From: a virus | IMG/VR virus record: IMGVR_UViG_3300045977_000256 | Coordinates: 1 to 38,219 of that record | Length of the DNA stretch: 38,219 nucleotides | Reading direction: 5' to 3' (one strand) | In this document: positions 2,196 to 38,219 of the stretch, piece by piece | How the letters are laid out: the number at the start of each line of letters is the position of its first letter | Position numbering within the stretch: position 1 is the first letter of the stretch | The notes under the pieces: model-generated | Told to the model about the DNA's origin: nothing | Seen by the model: the letters and a program-made list of their open reading frames with translations, nothing else | Database searches by the model: none | Translations under genes and position numbers: made by a program

Positions 2196-3862
2196 AACGT
2201 AGAGTTACAGCCGCGCAGACCCGGGCCGCGCAGAAGGTACCGCCCAAGGTGCCGGTTATTGTCCCGGATGCGACCGAGCGATTGTTCAGCTACGTCGAGC
2301 GCGACCTGCTGCCCGTCCGGATCGAGCAGATCCTGGCCAGCGCCCTCCAGGGCGACCTCACCCAGCAGGGCTACCTCTTCGAGCTGATGGTCGACACGTG
2401 GCCGCGGCTCAGCAAGAACATGAGCGAAGTCAGGCGGGCCGTCGGCAAGGCGCCCTGGAGCGTCCAGCCCTTTGCGGAAAAGGGGAAGGATCCAACCCCG
2501 CAAGCGCAGGAGATCGCTGAATACATCGAGAAAGCGATCTGGTCCATGACGCCGAGGCCCACCTATCAGGAGGATGGGTTCGAGGGTTTGGTGGGATGGT
2601 TGGCAACGGCCGCCTTCGGAGGGACACGGGTACTTGAGGTCTACTGGCACTCGACCATTGACGGCATCCTCCCGAGGGCGGCCCGCACCGTATCGGCCCA
2701 ATACCTCGGCTATCCCTGCCACCGCGGCGAGGAGGACCGGCTGATGCTGAAGCCAAGCGGCTACTACAACGGGCAGCTCGAGGATTTTCCCGAACATCAC
2801 TTCCTGATCGGCAACTACCGGGCCCATACGGGCCATGCCTCCGTCGCGGCTCCGATGCGTAGCCTCGTTGGCTGGTGGGTCGCGCAACGCTACGGGCTGA
2901 AGTGGTTCATGCAGTTTAGCCAGATCTATGGCATCCCGCTCAGGTGGGCCACCTACCGCGATGAGACCCTGATTGGCGAGATCGAGGCCATGCTGAGCAA
3001 CATCGGGACTTCCGGCTGGGGAGCCTTTCCGGAAGGTACGAGCCTACAGATCCAAGAGGCGAACCGGGCCGCCACATCCCTTCCCCAGGGCGCACTCCTC
3101 GACCGTGCTGATACTCAGGCGGACATCCTGATCCTCGGCCAGACCCTGACCTCCGACGTTGGGGATTCGGGGAGCCGCGCCCTAGGGGACGTGCACGAGG
3201 GCGTTCGGATGGAAGTGCTTTGTGGGTGCGCCGACATGGCCGCGGCGGTGATCAATCACCAACTGATCCCCTCGATAATCGCGCTGAACTTCGGGGAGGT
3301 GGACGGGCTGCCCTGGCTGGATCCAGGCATCGAGGAGCCCGAGGATGAGATGGCGATGGCGAACCGCGACAAGATCCTCTTCACCGATATGGGCCTGCCG
3401 GTCGCCTCGTCCTGGCTCTACGAGCGGCATGGAGTCCCGATGCCGGCGCCCGAGGATGAGCTTTTCAAGCCGCCCGCGAAGCCGCAACCGGCCGGCATGG
3501 GCGGAGATGAGACTGAAGACCCTGAGCCTATGCCCGAAGATGCCGAAGCCGTGGAGGCCGCGCGCGCCGAAACCCGAAAGCGGCAGAAGGAACTCGATCG
3601 GCTGGTCGACATGGTGCTGGGCGGCCTGACTGACGTGAAGCTCCAATGGCTCTCCGGGGTGCGGCCTTACTTCGAGGCCCTGATCCGGGCCGCCCGGAGC
3701 GGTGAGGTCACAGACAAGCAGTTTCTCAACACCGTGACGGCAGCGAGACGGCAGATGCCAGAACTGTTCAACAAGCTCGACACCGAAACCCTGAAGACGG
3801 CCCTGGAGGAATCGATCTCAGCCGGGCTCCTGTCCGGAACCGTGGGGAGGATAGACGTATGA
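2192..3862 (+). CDS. Portal protein, Mu gp29-like (DUF935 family)
   Basis: A 556-residue protein forming the dodecameric ring at one head vertex through which DNA enters. The layout fits the DUF935 portal family of Mu-like heads: an N-terminal section with WPRLSKNMSEVRRAV and APWSVQPF, a central core with GGTRVLEVYW and LVGWWVAQRYGLKWF, and the stretch GDSGSRALGDVH that is characteristic of the family. The C-terminal part (about 400-556) is acidic and probably helical. The start overlaps the upstream lipoprotein and the end overlaps the gpG-like gene by 4 bp each. Length is close to that of other DUF935 portals. Confidence 0.9.
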   Translation: MKRRVTAAQTRAAQKVPPKVPVIVPDATERLFSYVERDLLPVRIEQILASALQGDLTQQGYLFELMVDTWPRLSKNMSEVRRAVGKAPWSVQPFAEKGKDPTPQAQEIAEYIEKAIWSMTPRPTYQEDGFEGLVGWLATAAFGGTRVLEVYWHSTIDGILPRAARTVSAQYLGYPCHRGEEDRLMLKPSGYYNGQLEDFPEHHFLIGNYRAHTGHASVAAPMRSLVGWWVAQRYGLKWFMQFSQIYGIPLRWATYRDETLIGEIEAMLSNIGTSGWGAFPEGTSLQIQEANRAATSLPQGALLDRADTQADILILGQTLTSDVGDSGSRALGDVHEGVRMEVLCGCADMAAAVINHQLIPSIIALNFGEVDGLPWLDPGIEEPEDEMAMANRDKILFTDMGLPVASSWLYERHGVPMPAPEDELFKPPAKPQPAGMGGDETEDPEPMPEDAEAVEAARAETRKRQKELDRLVDMVLGGLTDVKLQWLSGVRPYFEALIRAARSGEVTDKQFLNTVTAARRQMPELFNKLDTETLKTALEESISAGLLSGTVGRIDV

Positions 3863-4464
3863 TTTCGCTCGAGGTCAGCATTGAATCGGACGAATCCATG
3901 CGAGCCGTTCGGGGCATCCTGGCCGGCATCGGCGCGAGCGGGCGGGCCCAGATGAATGACCTGGGCGGCCGCGAGGCCGTGAAGTTTCTGAGGAATTACC
4001 ATCGGGACTACGAGGGCGCGCGCCGCTGGACCAATCCCCAGCTCCCCACCCATGGAGCGGGCAGGCACCGCTCACGGTTCGGTGAGTTGATCGTGCGCGC
4101 CTGGGCGGTGACCCAGGCGAACGCCGACGGCGCCGTCGTGACCAATGCCGCGCCAGGCTTCGCTCACAAGCTCACGGGCGGAGTCATCCAGGCGAAGAAG
4201 AAGAAGGCCCTGACGATCCCGATGGTGCCCGAGGCGCACGCGCGCCGGGTGGCTGATTACGTTCGCGCCTTCGGCCGGGTATTTCGCCCCAAGGGCAAAT
4301 CCTACTTGGCCCAGGATGACGGGGCGGGCGGCCTGCGGGTCATCTATCTGCTGCGCAAGAGGGTCAATCAGAAGCCCTGGCCGGGAGCGCTCCCGCCGCT
4401 TGGGGAGATTTCCAACGCCTACCTAGAAGGCATCAAGAACCGCCTGAAAGAACTCGAACCCTAA
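3859..4464 (+). CDS. Virion morphogenesis protein, Mu gpG-like
   Basis: A 201-residue protein resembling the phage virion morphogenesis (Mu gpG / P2 gpS tail completion) family. The early segment FLRNYHRDYEG, the RR.T.....HG...RSRFGEL-type region and the late KPWPGALPP stretch match the family layout, in which a basic, aromatic core connects head and tail assembly. It follows the portal with an ATGA overlap, the expected position in Mu-like head operons. The exact step it serves (head or tail completion) is not resolvable from sequence. Confidence 0.75.
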   Translation: MISLEVSIESDESMRAVRGILAGIGASGRAQMNDLGGREAVKFLRNYHRDYEGARRWTNPQLPTHGAGRHRSRFGELIVRAWAVTQANADGAVVTNAAPGFAHKLTGGVIQAKKKKALTIPMVPEAHARRVADYVRAFGRVFRPKGKSYLAQDDGAGGLRVIYLLRKRVNQKPWPGALPPLGEISNAYLEGIKNRLKELEP

Positions 4465-4476
4465 CCCATAACTACC

Positions 4477-4884
4477 ATGGACGTATTAGCACCCTGCCAA
4501 GATCTCGCCACCGAGATCGCGAACCTGACAGCAGAAAAGGCCGTCATCGAGGAAAAACTCGCCGCCGCTATGGATCTCTGCGGAGTGGTCGGGACATGCC
4601 CGCCTGATACGCAGGACCGCGTAGACGCCGCGGTCGCTGTCGAGACCCTGCACGGCGAAGAGAAGCTGTTTATCGACCGCTGCGTGCATGTGAAACACAA
4701 CGTCGGCGGAGTGCCGATCACTGGGGAGGATGAGCCCTATCCGCAGACCATGGAAGAAGCCTTGGCGGAGCTCGTCGACCTCGAGGGCGAGGCTCTGCAA
4801 TCGCAGAAAGAGGAGGGATCCGAAGAGCCCCCGACCCCGGAGGAAGAAGAAGGAAAGCCCCCGACCCCGGAGGAAGAAGGATGA
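4477..4884 (+). CDS. Acidic protein of unknown function with a short C-terminal repeat
   Basis: A 135-residue acidic protein, not recognised. Residues about 10-35 are likely helical or coiled-coil (ATEIANLTAEKAVIEEKLAA). The C-terminus holds two copies of PPTPEEE-type sequence encoded by a direct DNA repeat near 4838-4880. It sits between the gpG-like and protease genes and overlaps the protease start by 4 bp (ATGA at 4881). Position suggests a head-assembly accessory or scaffold-like role, but nothing in the protein shows it. Confidence 0.7.
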   Translation: MDVLAPCQDLATEIANLTAEKAVIEEKLAAAMDLCGVVGTCPPDTQDRVDAAVAVETLHGEEKLFIDRCVHVKHNVGGVPITGEDEPYPQTMEEALAELVDLEGEALQSQKEEGSEEPPTPEEEEGKPPTPEEEG

Positions 4885-5879
4885 GAACCAACCTGCTCGT
4901 TTCGAGCGCCGCCCAGCGCATTCAATGCGGCGATGCCCCTTCGGCCCGGATCATGTATCTCCCCGCCGGGACGCATGAAGTCCATGCGACGGTGAATGGC
5001 AAGCCAAAGACGCTGACCGTCACAGTCGATGCGTCGGTTTTTGAACGCTTTTCCGCCGCACTCGCCAAGCGGCTCAAGGATAACGTCCGCCCGTATATCG
5101 ATTTCGATCATGCGGGGACAGCCGCGGCCGCGATCCCGACCGGCTTCGAGTGGGTGGAAGGCGAAGGCCTCTATCTCCTGGTCGAGTGGACCCGTGCCGG
5201 CGAAGAGGCCGTGACGGGCCGGTCCTACAGCTATTTCAGCCCTGCGTTCCTGATTGGAAACGACGGGACGCCTACGGGCCTAGCATCTCAGGGGCCAATC
5301 GGCGCGCTGGTCAATGACCCGGCCTTCCGCAAAATCCGCAGGGTAGCCGCCCATCAAACAACTCTTGCCGATCCCATGGACGAATTCGCATCCGCACTCG
5401 TGAAGGCTGGCCTGCTTACGACAGACCAAGACGTAGACGAAAAGGCCGCGGCCCAGATCCTCGCCACCCTCAAGGCCGCGAATGCCCGAGCTGAGACGGC
5501 CGAGAGCTTGGCCAAGACAGAAAAGGAGCGGGCTGACAGGGCCGAAGCGGCGCTAACGCAGGCGCGCGCGGAGCAGGCCGACGCGGCTCTGGTCGAGGCC
5601 ATCGAGGCCGGACGGATCCCTGCCAAGGATGAGGAAACGAAGACGTTCTGGAGAGGGCGTCTTCTCGAAGATCCGGCAGGAGCCCAGAAGGCCCTGGCCT
5701 CGATCCCGGCCAACCCCGTTACGCGGCGCGTCCTGAGTCAGGATCAAGCGCGGGGGCAGGCGCCTCAGCTTGGCGAAGTCCGCGCCAAGCAGATCCGCGC
5801 GAAAGCCGACGAACTCGTCAAGGCCGGGATGCGCTTCGACCAAGCGTGGCAGCTCGCCGGGAAATCCATTCCGGAGTGA
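4881..5879 (+). CDS. Prohead protease/scaffold, Mu gpI-like
   Basis: A 332-residue protein matching the Mu I-protein family. The N-terminal half (about 1-155) carries the protease-type stretches YIDFDHAGTAAAA and TGRSYSYFSPAFLI followed by a glycine-rich GTPTGLASQGPI segment. The C-terminal half (about 165-332) is alanine- and glutamate-rich and predicted helical, as expected for the scaffold portion. Such proteins guide capsid assembly and then cleave themselves and the scaffold out of the prohead. It sits directly before the decoration and major capsid genes. Confidence 0.82.
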   Translation: MRTNLLVSSAAQRIQCGDAPSARIMYLPAGTHEVHATVNGKPKTLTVTVDASVFERFSAALAKRLKDNVRPYIDFDHAGTAAAAIPTGFEWVEGEGLYLLVEWTRAGEEAVTGRSYSYFSPAFLIGNDGTPTGLASQGPIGALVNDPAFRKIRRVAAHQTTLADPMDEFASALVKAGLLTTDQDVDEKAAAQILATLKAANARAETAESLAKTEKERADRAEAALTQARAEQADAALVEAIEAGRIPAKDEETKTFWRGRLLEDPAGAQKALASIPANPVTRRVLSQDQARGQAPQLGEVRAKQIRAKADELVKAGMRFDQAWQLAGKSIPE

Positions 5880-19072: not shown

Positions 19073-19087
19073 TGGGGAATGGCTTTT
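19066..19087 (+). terminator. Intrinsic terminator of the structural operon
   Basis: GCCATTC (19066-19072) and GAATGGC (19077-19083) form a perfect 7-bp stem with a TGGG loop, followed by TTTT (19084-19087). It starts 10 bp after the tail hub stop, so it should end the long late operon. It also argues against starting the next gene at 19079. Confidence 0.75.
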
Positions 19088-19132
19088 GCCCGTCCTTTCC
19101 TGTCCTTTCGCGTCGTGAAACCTTCCGGACCA

Positions 19133-19351
19133 ATGTTGACCAAGGCCGAGGTGGCCGCACGTCTCCGCCTCTCCCCTCGGACCGTCACAACGCTGGCGCA
19201 TGAGGGGCACCTGCGGGCGATGAAGATCGGGAGAAGCGTTCGCTTCCGGGAGCAGGACGTCGAAGACTATCTCAAGCGGGCCTCAAAGCTCATGGTGCGC
19301 GCGCCTAAGAAGAAGACCAAGGCCAAGAAGAAGCGCGCCAGAGGCGGATGA
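19133..19351 (+). CDS. Small helix-turn-helix (excisionase/MerR-type) DNA-binding protein
   Basis: A 72-residue protein: LTKAEVAARLRLSPRTVTTL is a classic winged-helix motif of the HTH_17/excisionase type, then HEGHLRAMKIGRSVRFREQD and VEDYLKR complete the domain. The tail is lysine-rich (KKKTKAKKKRARGG), probably for DNA binding. ATG at 19133 is preferred because an in-frame start at 19079 lies inside the terminator. It could be a local regulator of the accessory block or a recombination directionality factor, although it is 5 kb from the integrase. Its stop overlaps the next start by 4 bp (ATGA). Confidence 0.8.
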   Translation: MLTKAEVAARLRLSPRTVTTLAHEGHLRAMKIGRSVRFREQDVEDYLKRASKLMVRAPKKKTKAKKKRARGG

Positions 19352-19716: not shown

Positions 19717-20502
19717 ATGCTGGCTATTCCGTGGCCATGGATTCCGAAGATCATCCACGTGTCTTGGTGGCAGGGCCGCGGGCACATGCCCGAGCAATAC
19801 ACCGAACACTTGGACCTATGGCAACGGCTCAATCCGGAATGGAGCATCCGCTTTTGGAGCGCTGACGATTTAGATAGGCTCGTCCGAAACAGCCGCTGGC
19901 GTCGCAAGTGGGACCAGATCCCGCTCATCAAGGGAGATTTCCCGCACATCAAGAAGGCGGACTTTGCGCGCTACGTGGTTTTATATCATTACGGCGGCCT
20001 CTATTCCGATCTCGACATCGTTCCTGTGCGCCCCATCTGGGAACTCTTCGAGGAGACGCGCGTGCATTGTGATGGGGTCTACAGGTTCGACCTCCTAACC
20101 GATGAGGACTGCGAGAGAGTGCGCGACCTATCGAAGCCGATCGGCGAACACAAGCTGATCTTCTTCGAGGAATGCCGCAGCATTGATTCCTTCGGGCCTG
20201 GGATCGCCAACGGTCTAATGTTCAGCAGGCCGGGCCTGCGGTTTTGGCGCCACTTCCTGACCTATGCGTGGAAGTTCCGCGACCGCCCGACCCTCCAGGC
20301 CTTCGGGCCCCACCGGCTCGCCTACTTCCTCCGCATGGTGAGGTCCGCCTATCAGGAGGACTACAAGGGCCTTTCGCTGCCGTGCTACTACGGGCTCTTC
20401 AACCGCCGGATCTTCGGCCCAATCCGGCATTTCACCTTTGCCCTTCACGAATCCGAATGCTCCTGGGGCTCGGATGAGACGCCTAAACGATGGATGGCCT
20501 AA
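19717..20502 (+). CDS. Glycosyltransferase, DXD-type (GT32-like)
   Basis: A 261-residue protein with the hallmarks of the sugar-binding DXD family: IPKIIHVSWWQGR near the start, then NPEWSIRFWSADDLD, KKADFARYVVLYHYGG and the metal-binding YSDLDIVPVRP. Such enzymes transfer a sugar from a nucleotide donor in the cytoplasm, usually onto lipopolysaccharide or capsule precursors. It is the first of four carbohydrate-acting genes that overlap or abut, so they probably act on one glycan. Its end overlaps the next gene by 13 bp. Confidence 0.85.
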   Translation: MLAIPWPWIPKIIHVSWWQGRGHMPEQYTEHLDLWQRLNPEWSIRFWSADDLDRLVRNSRWRRKWDQIPLIKGDFPHIKKADFARYVVLYHYGGLYSDLDIVPVRPIWELFEETRVHCDGVYRFDLLTDEDCERVRDLSKPIGEHKLIFFEECRSIDSFGPGIANGLMFSRPGLRFWRHFLTYAWKFRDRPTLQAFGPHRLAYFLRMVRSAYQEDYKGLSLPCYYGLFNRRIFGPIRHFTFALHESECSWGSDETPKRWMA

Positions 20503-23127: not shown

Positions 23128-23700
23128 ATGAAGGCCCTTCTTTACTCGTTATTGTCTTTCCTCGCCCTGTCCCTGGGCGGCTTCGCCGCGACAACGATTG
23201 ATTCCGGATCCCTGATCCTGGCCGATCTGGAGATCGACCCGGAGCCGGCGCCGGTGGAATGGTCAGACCTCGTGCTTGAGTGGGAGGTCATCCATCACGA
23301 GGACATCGCCGGGGGCATTTTCCAGTATGTCTACTCGCTCAGCGACGGGCCCGAGGAGATCGACCTCTTCCAGGCCGTGGCCTGCGAGCCACTCGTGGGC
23401 GGAGAGGGCTCCCCGAGTTATAGCGCGGGCTACAGTAACGGCGGGTTCTCCTTCGGGCCGATTCCCGGCGAGGAGGACGGGATCACAATCACGCCCATAG
23501 GGACGGCGCCCAGTCTCGAGCTGTCCTTTTACAACTTCGTCGCGCCCTTTCCTGGCGTGGTCCTGATCGGCTCCGAGGGCCCGGACATCCGCGCCAGCAT
23601 CCCGACCCCCAATGCGTGCGTGATCCCGGAGCCCTCGAGCCTGCTCCTGCTGACCGGGGCGGGCCTTCCCCTGCTGCTCCGCCGCCGCCGGGCCTCCTAA
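23128..23700 (+). CDS. PEP-CTERM protein, exported
   Basis: A 190-residue protein with a signal peptide (MKALLYSLLSFLALSLGGF, about residues 1-20), a beta-rich acidic body and a textbook PEP-CTERM signal: P167-E168-P169, hydrophobic residues 172-184, R185-R188 and the final AS. In this family the tail anchors the protein until an exosortase cleaves near the PEP motif and releases it toward the cell surface or extracellular matrix. The body resembles module 1 of the protein at 253-1860 (shared ILADL/FADL, LV.WE.E and FGP elements). No exosortase is encoded in the window, so a host enzyme would be needed. Confidence 0.85.
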   Translation: MKALLYSLLSFLALSLGGFAATTIDSGSLILADLEIDPEPAPVEWSDLVLEWEVIHHEDIAGGIFQYVYSLSDGPEEIDLFQAVACEPLVGGEGSPSYSAGYSNGGFSFGPIPGEEDGITITPIGTAPSLELSFYNFVAPFPGVVLIGSEGPDIRASIPTPNACVIPEPSSLLLLTGAGLPLLLRRRRAS

Positions 23701-24116: not shown

Positions 24117-24291
24117 CCGTTGTCAGTAGGCTCCTCTGAATCGCGTAAGTCGTTGGTATTGAAGACTGAGGCGAGGGCGGGAATCGAACCCGCGAAACGA
24201 CGAAGGCCTTTTTGGATCTGTTATAGTCTGATAAATACAGGGTTGACCTGACATGATCCGTCATAGACTGTTGTCAAAACCGTTGTCAGTA
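24117..24291. repeat. Repeated CCGTTGTCAGTA sites flanking attP, likely integrase arm sites
   Basis: The 12-mer CCGTTGTCAGTA occurs exactly at 24117-24128 and 24280-24291, and a related TGTTGTCA lies at 24269-24276. The sites lie on both sides of the tRNA-like core, and the last overlaps the integrase start codon. This layout matches arm-type integrase binding sites, and occupancy there could also repress the integrase gene. Confidence 0.5.
24170..24193 (-). other. attP core: 3' end of a tRNA gene
   Basis: Read on the minus strand, 24193-24177 is a perfect T-arm (GCGGG, loop TTCGATT, CCCGC), followed by CCTCGCC at 24176-24170, which suits the 3' acceptor strand of a tRNA starting GGCGAGG. 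No 5' half of a tRNA is present, so this is a fragment. A tRNA 3' end about 100 bp from a tyrosine integrase is the usual phage attachment core, restoring the host tRNA after integration. Which tRNA is targeted cannot be settled from the fragment, and the exact crossover borders need the host sequence. Confidence 0.75.
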
Positions 24292-25424
24292 TGGCTTCTA
24301 TCAGACGCAAAAAGGGAACTCCTAACTGGTATGCTTGCGTGACCCTGCCGGGTGGCCGGCGGCGCCAGTTCTCAACGCGCAAGACTAACCGGAAGGAGGC
24401 GCTGGAGATCGCGCAGGCCACCGAGCTGGCGCTCCGGAAGGGCCGGGACCGCCAACACTTCCTGCACCTTCTTGGAGGCCTCTGGGCTGAGGTCTCTCCG
24501 GAGGGCCCAAAGATGCTGGCCGCCGACTACTTCGCCCGCTGGTTCGCGGTGCGCAAACCTGAGATTTCCAAGACGACGGCCGAGAAGTACGCCCAAGTCA
24601 TCGACGAGGCCTCCGCCGCCTGGGAGGGACGGGACCTCGACCAGCTCTCTCAGCAGGACGTCGCCGCCCTCCGGGACCAGTGGGGGAGCGTCCATTCGGC
24701 GGCGACGGCCAACCTGAAGCTGCGGATCCTCAAAGGTGTGCTGGCCGACGCCTGGCGCGACGGAGCTGCGGCGAGAAACGAGGCCGCGAAGGTCAGGCCC
24801 CTGAAGAAGTCCGCTTCAAAATCCCGGCGGCCCTTCAGCACCGAGGAGCTCAGGCTCCTGCTGCAGACCGCCGGCGAGACCGAGTGGAAGGGAATGATCC
24901 TCCTGGGTCTCTACACCGGGCAGCGGCTGAAGGATCTGGCCAACCTTAGCTGGGACAAGATCCATCTGGACCGCCAGGAGATTAGCTTCCGGGCAGGAAA
25001 GACCGGGCGAATCATCCTCCTTCCTCTGGCCTGCCCGCTGGCCGATTACCTCATCGGCAGGCCGGCGCCCGACCAGGCCGACGAAGCCCTCTTCCCGGCC
25101 CTGGCCGGCCTCCGGAGCGCCGCCCTCTCTCAGGCCTTCTACCGGCTCATGACGGAGGCCAGGCTCGTGACGCCCCGCGAACACTGGAAGGGACGCAGGA
25201 GCGAGATGCCAAAGCGGAGGACCGCTTCGGTGATAGGCTTCCACTCGCTCAGACACACCGCCACCTCGATGCTGAAAGCCGCCGGAGTCTCCGAGGCCGT
25301 CGCCATGGCGATCATCGGCCACGACTCTCCCGCGGTGAGCCAACACTACACGTCGATCGGCCAGGAAACGCTCAGAGAAGCGATCTCGCGCCTTCCCCGG
25401 CTGGACTCTAAGCAGCCCGAATAG
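24291..25424 (+). CDS. int: Tyrosine integrase
   Basis: A 377-residue site-specific recombinase for insertion and excision at the tRNA-derived attP beside it. The N-terminal part (about 1-60) looks like a basic arm-binding domain (MASIRRKKGTPNWYACVTLP), then a SAM-like core-binding domain (about 75-170), and the catalytic domain. Catalytic residues are visible: R212 (GQRLKD), K237 (AGKTG), H318 and R321 (HSLRHT), H344 (IGHDS) and Y353 (QHYTS). Length is normal. The start codon lies in a repeated CCGTTGTCAGTA element, which suggests autoregulation. It converges with the leftward lysogeny operon, with only 4 bp between the stops. Confidence 0.95.
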   Translation: MASIRRKKGTPNWYACVTLPGGRRRQFSTRKTNRKEALEIAQATELALRKGRDRQHFLHLLGGLWAEVSPEGPKMLAADYFARWFAVRKPEISKTTAEKYAQVIDEASAAWEGRDLDQLSQQDVAALRDQWGSVHSAATANLKLRILKGVLADAWRDGAAARNEAAKVRPLKKSASKSRRPFSTEELRLLLQTAGETEWKGMILLGLYTGQRLKDLANLSWDKIHLDRQEISFRAGKTGRIILLPLACPLADYLIGRPAPDQADEALFPALAGLRSAALSQAFYRLMTEARLVTPREHWKGRRSEMPKRRTASVIGFHSLRHTATSMLKAAGVSEAVAMAIIGHDSPAVSQHYTSIGQETLREAISRLPRLDSKQPE

Positions 25425-25428
25425 AAAC

Positions 25429-26076
25429 CTACTGGAAGATCCTTATCCTCAATTGCCGGCCGGGCGGGAGGCCCATCGCCTGATTGAGCTCATCGCGCTG
25501 GTGCCAGCCCTCATTATAGCCATACTTATAGGCCACCTCGTAGGCCTCCTGATCGCCGGAGTGTCCCGCCGCGTGGATCTCTGCAAAGCGCCTCGCCAGC
25601 TCTGGATTTCGCGGCCGGATCTCCGCGGCGGCCGTCTTCCCCACTAGGTAGCCATCGTCAAAACCGGCCTTCCACGATTCGGGGGAACGGGTTTCGAGAT
25701 CGAGACCGGGACCAGAAAAGAGAAAGATGACAGAGAGGCCTCCAATACACACCAGAAATGCGAGGATTCCCGCGAGCGCTAGCAGGGTTCCCCAAGACCA
25801 GGAGGCGGGCGGTGGAGGATAGACACCGATGAGGAGAGGGTCTGCAGTTTGCGTTCCACGACGAGGCAAGGGAGGCGGCGTTGGAAGCTCTTTCCTGACC
25901 TTGATCTCCTTGGCGAAGGCCTCCTCGTAGGCCTCCCGGAACTGCGCATCGACCTCGGCCCGGAAGTCGGCCTCATCCATCGCCTTCCCGTGGGCCTCCA
26001 GGTATTCGTTCCAGATCCGGTCTCCAAGTTCCTGGCGGACCCTCTCCATCAATGTACGTTTCTGGTCGTCTGTCAT
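25429..26076 (-). CDS. Single-span membrane protein, lysogeny operon
   Basis: A 215-residue protein with a charged helical N-terminal part (MTDDQKRTLMERVRQELGDR...), a proline-rich linker (PTPPPLPRRG), one membrane segment at about residues 95-120 (GTLLALAGILAFLVCIGGLS) and a C-terminal domain with GFDDGYLVGKTAAAEI and YGYNEGW. Not assigned to a family. ATG at 26076 is chosen because it overlaps the upstream stop by 4 bp; a longer frame would run into the previous gene. It is the last gene of a leftward operon led by the ribbon-helix-helix regulator, so it is probably made in lysogens. A role in superinfection exclusion is possible but unproven. Confidence 0.8.
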   Translation of the reverse strand: MTDDQKRTLMERVRQELGDRIWNEYLEAHGKAMDEADFRAEVDAQFREAYEEAFAKEIKVRKELPTPPPLPRRGTQTADPLLIGVYPPPPASWSWGTLLALAGILAFLVCIGGLSVIFLFSGPGLDLETRSPESWKAGFDDGYLVGKTAAAEIRPRNPELARRFAEIHAAGHSGDQEAYEVAYKYGYNEGWHQRDELNQAMGLPPGRQLRIRIFQ

Positions 26077-26552
26077 AGCCCCTCGATCTGCTTCCTTTCC
26101 TCCGCCTCTCTGGCGGCTTCGCCGCGGTTCAGATTGCCGGATGTTAAGATTGCCAAAACGTCCTCCCGATTCTCTTTGATCTCCCAAGTGATGGCAGAGA
26201 GGCTTCTATCTTCGGTAACCCAGTGATTCCCGTTTTCCCGGGGGCTTTGAGTCATCTCCCATTTTTGGCCTCGGCCGTTCGCCTTCAGGAGAGTAGAGAT
26301 TTCGGTCTCCGAAAACCAGTAGGGGTCAGGATACTCCCTGTGCTTCCGGTAAGAGATATAGTCCGCTCGCCCTTTGTGGAACTGTACTGTTATCAGCAGC
26401 CCGTTCTTCGAGAAGATGACAAGTTTTGAGGAGTCCTTGCGACCAATCGGATCCCCGTAGCGGCGAATACACTCGGCTTCGGTCTCGCCGAGGCGTGCAT
26501 AGGCGGGGATTGAAAGGACGGCGGAAACGAGGAGGAGGAATATGGGTTTCAT
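26073..26552 (-). CDS. Secreted protein of unknown function, lysogeny operon
   Basis: A 159-residue protein with a clear signal peptide (MKPIFLLLVSAVLSIPAYA) and a mature domain starting LGETEAECIRRYGDPIG. The opening GET..EC..RYG.P pattern followed by LVIFSKNGLLITVQFHKGRADYISY is one I recognise as widespread in unnamed exported bacterial proteins, but I know no function for it. It is encoded 39 bp downstream of the regulator gene and overlaps the next gene by 4 bp, so both exported proteins should be expressed from the repressor promoter. Confidence 0.8.
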   Translation of the reverse strand: MKPIFLLLVSAVLSIPAYARLGETEAECIRRYGDPIGRKDSSKLVIFSKNGLLITVQFHKGRADYISYRKHREYPDPYWFSETEISTLLKANGRGQKWEMTQSPRENGNHWVTEDRSLSAITWEIKENREDVLAILTSGNLNRGEAAREAEERKQIEGL

Positions 26553-26591: not shown

Positions 26592-26795
26592 TCATTTTGA
26601 GCCTTTTGGCCGGCGGGGCGAAGACGGGGGCGCGGCCGGTTGGATTTCGACCACGCCCCGCTTCTTCAGGTCGTTCCGAACGAGGAGCATTATATATCCC
26701 GATCGAGATTGGCCTAAGGCCTCGGCGCGGGCGTCGATGTCCGGAAGGAGCTCCTCGGGGAAGCTGACGGAAATCGGTTTGCGGCTGGTCGACAT
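26592..26795 (-). CDS. Ribbon-helix-helix regulator, leftward (likely lysogeny repressor)
   Basis: A 67-residue protein: RKPISVSFPEELLPDIDARA has the strand-helix start of the CopG/Arc fold, and LGQSRSGYIMLLVRNDLKKR the second helix. The last 20 residues are proline-rich and basic. ATG at 26795 is chosen over an upstream frame because the protein then begins with the fold. Its start lies inside an inverted repeat (26794-26812), which suggests it controls its own transcription. It leads the leftward operon and faces another RHH gene, an arrangement like a CI/Cro switch built from RHH proteins. Which of the two is the repressor is inferred from direction only. Confidence 0.8.
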   Translation of the reverse strand: MSTSRKPISVSFPEELLPDIDARAEALGQSRSGYIMLLVRNDLKKRGVVEIQPAAPPSSPRRPKGSK

Positions 26796-26886
26796 TGTTA
26801 AGCAATAACAATACGCAGCCTGCGGCAAAGTTTCAATCTAAAGAAAAAAGTTCTTGTCTCTCGTGTGTTAAACTTTAACAATACGT
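26794..26886. promoter_or_regulatory. Divergent operator region between two RHH genes
   Basis: Two symmetric sites are visible: ATTGTTA-(5)-TAACAAT at 26794-26812, and TGTTAAA-C-TTTAACA at 26866-26880. Each is followed by TACG(C/T)AGC, so a 14-mer starting TAACAATACG recurs at 26806 and 26876, 70 bp apart. One site covers the leftward start codon; the other lies just before the rightward ATG at 26891. TTGTCT (26854-26859) and AACAAT (26877-26882) could serve as a rightward promoter at 17-bp spacing. This is what a shared operator of dimeric or tetrameric RHH regulators should look like. Confidence 0.7.
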
Positions 26887-26890
26887 AGCA

Positions 26891-27100
26891 ATGATGCGCT
26901 CGCTTAGCATAAGTTTCCCAGACCACCTCATCAAAGATGTCGAAAGGGTGGTCCGGGAGCTCGACACCACTCGAAGCCAATACCTGAGATCGTTGGTCCG
27001 GGAGGATCTTCGACGCTTCCGAGGAAGAAAGCCCCGACGCCCGAACGTAGCCGTGCGGCTGCGCCGGAAACCAAACCCTAAAGCGGCGAGGGCCACCTGA
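26891..27100 (+). CDS. Ribbon-helix-helix regulator, rightward (Cro-like position)
   Basis: A 69-residue protein (68 from the ATG at 26894): SLSISFPDHLIKDVERVVRE is the strand and first helix, LDTTRSQYLRSLVREDLRRF the second, followed by a very basic tail (RGRKPRRPNVAVRLRRKPNP). It heads the rightward early operon and is divergent from the leftward RHH gene across the shared operator. By analogy with lambda it holds the Cro position. The two RHH proteins are related in fold but differ outside the core. Confidence 0.8.
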   Translation: MMRSLSISFPDHLIKDVERVVRELDTTRSQYLRSLVREDLRRFRGRKPRRPNVAVRLRRKPNPKAARAT

Positions 27101-27147: not shown

Positions 27148-27417
27148 ATGGAACAAACTCCCACCCTCGCTGAAGCGCTGGCCGACGCCGCCAGGGCGCT
27201 CTCCAAAGCCGCGAAAGCCCTCGAACGGAGCAGCATGAACGGCCAAGCCGAATGGCTGCGGCTGCCTCGCGAGGCCCCAGGCGAGCGCTGTCCCATTCTA
27301 GGTGTCTCCCAGTCGACGATTAAGCGCCTGATCAGGGAAGGGCAGCTCCGGACTCACCGGAAAGGCGGCGTTCGCTACTACAGCGCAGAGGACGCCAGGA
27401 GGCTTAGCAAACCATGA
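27148..27417 (+). CDS. Helix-turn-helix DNA-binding protein
   Basis: An 89-residue protein. The first 35 residues form a charged alanine-rich helix; the second half, ILGVSQSTIKRLIREGQLR followed by THRKGGVRYYSAEDARRL, is an excisionase/MerR-type helix-turn-helix with wing. It could be an early regulator or the excision factor. It starts the early operon after the Cro-like gene, and its stop overlaps the next start by 4 bp. Confidence 0.8.
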   Translation: MEQTPTLAEALADAARALSKAAKALERSSMNGQAEWLRLPREAPGERCPILGVSQSTIKRLIREGQLRTHRKGGVRYYSAEDARRLSKP

Positions 27418-36883: not shown

Positions 36884-38219
36884 ACTCGGCCTAGCGCCCT
36901 TCGCGTTCCGCTATCTCCTGCCCAACCCCTATGCGTGGCAGATCGAAGCCTTCGCCTCGATCGAATTCAACCGGCGGACCTCCATCCGGGCTGCCAACGG
37001 CTCAGGCAAGACCCAAGCCGTAATCGCCCCGGCGATCCTCTGGTGGCTCTACGCCTTCCCCCGCGGCCGCGCTGTCGTAACCTCTGGCTCGTGGATCCAG
37101 GTTGAGAAACAGCTCTGGCCTGCCCTCACGTCCTACCGGGGAAGGTCCATGTTCGCCCATTGGACCTTCAACGTAACCGAAGTCAGGCGTCCGGAGGGAG
37201 GGTGGGCAATCGGCTGGTCGACCAACGAACCAGGCCGCGCCGAAGGCTACCATCAGAGGCCCGATAGTCCCCTGCTTTACATCATCGATGAGGCCAAATC
37301 TGTCGAGGATGGGATCATGGACGCCTGCAACCGTTGTACCTGCACCCGTGTCCTGATCGCCTCGAGCCCAGGAGCGCCCGAGGGCTTCTTTTTCCGAAGC
37401 CACAACGAGGAATCGGGCCGCTGGCACCGGCTCGCCGTCACGTCGGCTGATTGCCCCCACATCGATCCAAAGAAACGCGCGGAGGATCTGGCCCTCTACG
37501 GCGAGGACCACCCGGTCTACCGGTCGATGCACTTGGGAGAGTTCACCTACCTCGATCAATCAGTCATCCTGAGCCCCGACAAGCTGCGGGGCTGCCGCGA
37601 GGATCCGCCGCCCAGCTACCGGGGCCCGACGACGGCCTTCTGTGACTTCGCTGCCGGCGGCGATGAGAACGTGCTGGCGATCCGGGAAGGGAACCGGGCC
37701 TGGATCGCTGAGGCGTGGCGGGATGCGGATACGATAAGGGCCTGCCATGAATTCAAGCGCCTCTTTGGCAAGCACGATCTCAAGCCGGGCCAGATCTACG
37801 GGGATGCCACGGGGCTCGGGACCGTCATGATCGACTACCTCGCAGAGCTGCGCTGCCGGATCAACCGGGTACACAACGGGGAGCAGCCACAGAACACCAA
37901 AGCCTATGCCGACCGCGGATCCGAGATCTGGTTCGAGGCCGCCAAGGCGATCGAACGAAAGCAGATCATCCTGGAGGGGATCGATCCCGAGACTGCCAGA
38001 CAGCTCACAACGCGAAAGATCGACATGACGCCTGCCGGCAAGCTGAAGGCGGAACCGAAGGAGAAGATGAAGGCCCGCGGCCTTGAGAGCCCAGACAGGG
38101 CAGACGCCCTCCTGGGGGCAATTGCGATGCAGATCGGGACTGGCGCCCTATCCCGCGATCAACTACGTTCTATCCGCGCCCCAGCATCGCCCTTTGCCGT
38201 GAAGTCAATCACCCGTTTT
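36759..38219 (+). CDS. terL: Terminase large subunit (body; ends at 197-199 across the junction)
   Basis: A 487-residue packaging motor read from ATG 36759 to the window end, with the stop at 197-199. The ATPase domain has Walker A ANGSGKT (K84) and Walker B LLYIIDEAK (D177, E178). The nuclease domain has D296 (CDFAAGGDE), D349 (YGDATG) and D449 (PDRADAL). The start is uncertain: the first 35 residues are basic and proline-rich, overlap terS in another frame, and have no clear Shine-Dalgarno; conserved sequence begins near 36882 (ELGLAPFAF). It is the strongest evidence that the window is a linearised circle. Confidence 0.92.
   Translation, partial: MPKPQPQPQRKAGRKKKSASSPKSSRPRACAPLRARDLPSYELGLAPFAFRYLLPNPYAWQIEAFASIEFNRRTSIRAANGSGKTQAVIAPAILWWLYAFPRGRAVVTSGSWIQVEKQLWPALTSYRGRSMFAHWTFNVTEVRRPEGGWAIGWSTNEPGRAEGYHQRPDSPLLYIIDEAKSVEDGIMDACNRCTCTRVLIASSPGAPEGFFFRSHNEESGRWHRLAVTSADCPHIDPKKRAEDLALYGEDHPVYRSMHLGEFTYLDQSVILSPDKLRGCREDPPPSYRGPTTAFCDFAAGGDENVLAIREGNRAWIAEAWRDADTIRACHEFKRLFGKHDLKPGQIYGDATGLGTVMIDYLAELRCRINRVHNGEQPQNTKAYADRGSEIWFEAAKAIERKQIILEGIDPETARQLTTRKIDMTPAGKLKAEPKEKMKARGLESPDRADALLGAIAMQIGTGALSRDQLRSIRAPASPFAVKSITRF
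38024..38219. repeat. Terminal repeat, right copy (circular overlap)
   Basis: Same sequence as 1-196 apart from two silent third-position changes in terL. It marks where the assembled circle was opened. Confidence 0.93.

Follow-up and report, generated by a model that had tools for sequence, protein, structure and literature searches.

Opposed ribbon-helix-helix genes as a candidate lysis-lysogeny switch in a temperate phage related to Akkermansia phages

Two short ribbon-helix-helix (RHH) proteins, encoded divergently between the integrase gene and the early operon of a phage genome, are proposed here as its primary lysis-lysogeny switch, derived from a duplicated repressor and acting on shared operators; we give this reading a probability of about 0.68. 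For the two proteins, named RHH1 and RHH2, we infer binding, site preference, mutual repression and immunity. We hold at even odds the wider proposal that a group of Verrucomicrobiota phages and elements has dispensed with CI/Cro and relies, for immunity and for the decision, solely on a duplicated RHH pair with a single type of operator, which runs bistable lambda logic on an unrelated fold from near-leaderless mRNAs.

The window is the whole virus record, 38,219 bases in length. A direct repeat of ~196 bp with at least one mismatch lies at its ends (1-196 and 38024-38219), so the record was judged probably complete, and the genome probably circularly assembled. It encodes portal, protease, major head protein, tape measure and large terminase, together with a tyrosine integrase, and by sequence is a temperate tailed phage, kin of Akkermansia phages. 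The host is likely in Verrucomicrobiota, because the portal (nearest match the portal of Akkermansia phage Chantilly, 32%) and the terminase (39% identity to that of Chantilly) resemble those of this phage. Two further genes were noted in passing: in the late region a second HTH_17 protein at 19079-19351 (+), ahead of a glycosyltransferase at 19717-20502, and, at 23128-23700 (+), a phage protein with a weak PEP-CTERM-like tail, a similar tail being encoded near the record start. The features of the locus are as follows.

24168-24207 (-): tRNA 3'-end-like sequence (T-arm/acceptor), just upstream of the integrase, read by eye
24291-25424 (+): tyrosine integrase, from family profiles
25429-26100 (-): third gene of the leftward operon, with a hydrophobic mid segment; probable accessory gene, exact start uncertain
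26073-26552 (-): second gene of the leftward operon, with a signal-peptide-like N terminus; homologue in a relative phage (L078)
26592-26795 (-): RHH1, 67 aa, ATG at 26795-26793; proposed lysogenic repressor (CI/Mnt position)
26796-26810: left operator candidate TGTTAAGCAATAACA, abutting the RHH1 ATG
26796-26819 (+): left copy of the 24-bp direct repeat, containing TAACAATACGCAGC
26808-26836 (-): leftward promoter candidate TTGAAA-17-TATTGT, its -10 (26808-26813) overlapping the left site
26854-26882 (+): rightward promoter candidate TTGTCT-17-AACAAT, weak (8/12), -10 at 26877-26882
26866-26880: right operator candidate TGTTAAACTTTAACA, 7/8 pairs in a 17-bp frame, 10 bp before the RHH2 ATG
26866-26889 (+): right copy of the 24-bp direct repeat, containing TAACAATACGTAGC
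26891-27100 (+): RHH2, 69 aa; proposed lytic repressor (Cro/Arc position)
27148-27417 (+): HTH_17/MerR-type protein, excisionase-like, next gene rightward of RHH2

RHH1 matched the Pfam families RHH_5 (E=1.3e-3) and RHH_1 (E=0.011), short of their curated cut-offs, and the PHROG family phrog_4738, annotated 'transcriptional repressor' (E=3e-5); RHH2 matched phrog_4738 (E=1.6e-3) and nothing in Pfam. AlphaFold modelled each as two confident helices (pLDDT ~90-95) behind an N-terminal segment of strand length, the models being of single chains and RHH strands forming only in the dimer. The top Foldseek hits in the PDB were Arc (1par, prob 1.00) for RHH1 and CopG (2cpg, prob 0.96) for RHH2, so that both show the beta-helix-helix order and Arc/CopG-like fold of the RHH (MetJ/Arc/CopG) superfamily. 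Their RHH cores are 39% identical across 38 aa (E=1e-9 in this one pairwise comparison), and so the two appear to be paralogues that arose by duplication.

RHH domains are common among antitoxins, and weak matches to HicB-like and CopG families were seen, which would suit antitoxins or plasmid-type partition or copy regulators having no role in lysogeny. Profile searches found no toxin family beside RHH1 or RHH2, as a type II toxin-antitoxin module would have, and the toxin-antitoxin reading was dropped; with two facing paralogues, an excisionase-like next gene and an integrase next door as well, we regard either assignment as very improbable.

The gap between the two genes is 95 bp at 36% GC, against 62% for the genome. 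It holds two near-palindromes, TGTTAAGCAATAACA and TGTTAAACTTTAACA, each within one copy of a 24-bp direct repeat (20/24 matches), 70 bp apart. When the gap was dinucleotide-shuffled 1500 times, a 20-match repeat never arose and the best shuffle gave 17; the two palindromes by themselves stand out less, with 51 of 3000 shuffles doing as well. Dyad symmetry is greater in the right site than in the left. The centres of the half-sites TTGTTA/TAACAA lie 11 bp from each other, the spacing that, judging from Arc, is expected when a pair of RHH dimers shares an operator.

The original prediction was of two short, opposed RHH proteins, divergently transcribed, and on this profiles, models and Foldseek agree. 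It also described two symmetric sites sharing an element 70 bp apart, and the window has just two exact copies of TAACAATACG[C/T]AGC, at 26806-26819 and 26876-26889, with a separation of exactly 70 bp. The shared TACGYAGC tail, however, is not part of the dyads, and its two copies are directly oriented. The left site had further been said to cover the leftward start codon; its 15-bp core in fact abuts the ATG, beginning one base upstream of it at 26796.

Near-identity of the two sites would also fit a single RHH protein occupying both, the other having a separate job such as excision control or antagonism by heterodimer formation, with no mutual repression. RHH paralogues could heterodimerise, and the contact-strand residues of the two proteins, aligned to Arc, are similar and non-identical (P-S-S versus S-S-S); as an argument, similarity of contact residues was kept weak, Arc and Mnt sharing residues but binding different operators. 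Such a division of labour sits poorly with divergent placement over both promoters and with the recurrence of paired RHH genes, and we think it quite unlikely.

Of the two outward promoters, each has its best -10 box overlapped by one of the palindromes. The leftward candidate is the sole sigma70-like match within 24-28 kb. The rightward -10 overlaps the right site at a position equivalent to that of the leftward -10 in the left site; this promoter is weak by consensus, which counts against a switch. Because the start codons lie ~8 to 12 bases past the -10 boxes, both repressor mRNAs may be nearly leaderless. An Rfam search of the locus showed no convincing RNA element.

The proposed switch would work as follows. 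In the prophage, RHH1 would be expressed leftward along with accessory membrane or secreted genes, and on the right site, over the rightward -10, it would silence RHH2 together with the excisionase-like and early genes. Since the right site is the more symmetric, RHH1 would block the lytic promoter first and itself later: at a higher level it would also bind the less symmetric left site and so limit its own expression. RHH2, as first gene of the rightward operon, would use the same type of site over the leftward -10 to turn RHH1 off during lytic growth.

Gene order supports this switch, the RHH pair being flanked by the integrase and by an early operon with an excisionase-like gene rightward. 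Following RHH2 are the HTH_17 gene, two small ORFs, an unknown 241-aa protein and DUF1064. Leftward, the secreted-looking gene at 26073-26552 (-) has a homologue (32%) within the tail region of the relative phage G007 (L078 14466-14948), and therefore moves as a moron. The tRNA-like stretch at 24168-24207, where ARAGORN found no whole tRNA, is probably the attP core.

In the whole record (G000) no match to an HTH_3-type repressor was found, by a search that does find matches in relatives. Among these is Akkermansia phage G035, whose order is integrase (+), leftward genes, an XRE-type repressor (4282-4731, -) opposed to an HTH protein (4779-5006, +), and early genes. By gene order, then, a CI/Cro-like helix-turn-helix pair is in the slot held by the RHH pair in the window.

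The closest known arrangement is immI of phage P22, in which mnt (-) and arc (+) encode short paralogous RHH repressors (48% identity) divergently on either side of a gap of ~90 bp. Their operators lie on promoters that overlap, and leftward of mnt come a superinfection-type gene, sieA, and an orf; cross-control between mnt and arc has been reported (PMC11016777, PMC7549136). The window has the divergent paralogous RHH repressor genes of this type and lacks the adjacent antirepressor gene (ant). The operators of Arc and Mnt are unlike each other, whereas the sites in the window are near copies. The likeness raises the alternative that the window pair is likewise a secondary region for antirepressor or accessory control, the main repressor being a different protein: immI modulates lysogeny and is dispensable for it (PMC11016777), and several ORFs of the window have no family match, so that an unrecognised repressor elsewhere is possible. 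However, immI controls ant in the late region and P22 has a separate primary immC, while the window pair lies between integrase and early genes, with no antirepressor-like gene adjoining RHH2 and no CI-like gene found in the record; the CI/Cro-like genes in the same slot of the Akkermansia relative also speak against a secondary role, which we consider unlikely. The layout of the locus recalls the side switch of P22, but here it appears to be the main one.

An RHH switch in place of CI/Cro, as originally predicted, is partly supported: by the RHH folds, by the lack of an HTH_3 match, by the integrase and early-gene flanks, and by relatives with a CI/Cro-like pair or another divergent RHH pair in this slot; its novelty was overstated, opposed paralogous RHH repressors being known already from immI, although in a secondary role. 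A literature search, of incomplete coverage, turned up no tailed phage whose main switch is described as two opposed RHH proteins. F55 of the Sulfolobus virus SSV1 is a small RHH protein reported to keep lysogeny by repressing early promoters (PMC5569661). It differs in being a single repressor, from an archaeal virus, acting at tandem ATAGATAG sites, with no opposed RHH partner described (PMC5569661).

With lambda-type CI/Cro the window shares divergent repressors, candidate sites common to both over opposing promoters, and the gene order of the G035 XRE pair; the fold differs, RHH in place of helix-turn-helix. The 67-aa RHH1 also has no S24 autocleavage domain, and therefore induction must differ from that of a CI/Cro switch. 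If the main reading is true, the same decision logic has evolved on a different repressor fold by duplication inside one family, RHH pair and CI/Cro are swappable at one genome position among related phages, and prophage induction in these hosts needs a trigger other than the RecA-triggered cleavage of CI. The pair would also be a handle for spotting temperate phages whose repressors escape current searches.

Scanning with a terminase profile found 62 related viral loci. Single-sequence scans with RHH1, RHH2, the integrase and the 241-aa ORF found no relatives in viral contigs, nor did the integrase scan in genome contigs; RHH1 and RHH2 had no match in named phages even at E=1. A search with RHH1 over 44 relatives was empty, this first pass being perhaps too strict for short proteins, and the phrog_4738 profile had no match in relatives. 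A purpose-built HMM found a second divergent RHH pair in G006 (IMGVR_UViG_3300009148_000537; terminase 48% to that of the window), at L075 2571-2840 (-), which was in the seed, and 2943-3110 (+), which was absent from it. The two are 32% identical and have weak Pfam/PHROG support (DUF6364, CopG-antitoxin-type, Arc-like repressor). Their gap has three copies of GTTTAATAAAC, the last touching the start codon, and an integrase is nearby, which favours the proposed switch; counting against it, G006 carries an HTH_3 gene elsewhere (12.6 kb). A third protein with an RHH_1 domain (L075 1248-1748, -; E=6.5e-5) is encoded between the pair and the integrase.

Verrucomicrobiota genomes were also searched, using an RHH alignment. 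One divergent pair (L105/L108) was excluded as support, its right protein being 206 aa and its neighbours looking chromosomal, and in another locus (L093) the paired RHH genes have another gene in between. Three Verrucomicrobiota chromosomes (G255, G146, G516) have divergent RHH pairs with cores 190-200 bp apart, each followed by an HTH gene that is 75-77% alike between genomes, a recurrence that also favours the switch reading. The gaps of G146 and G516 share conserved islands, TTGGTAT...ATACCAA and tandem GGCGTGCT. In these two the left repeats differ from the right, as in P22, and therefore shared operators are not universal and are a feature of the window and G006.
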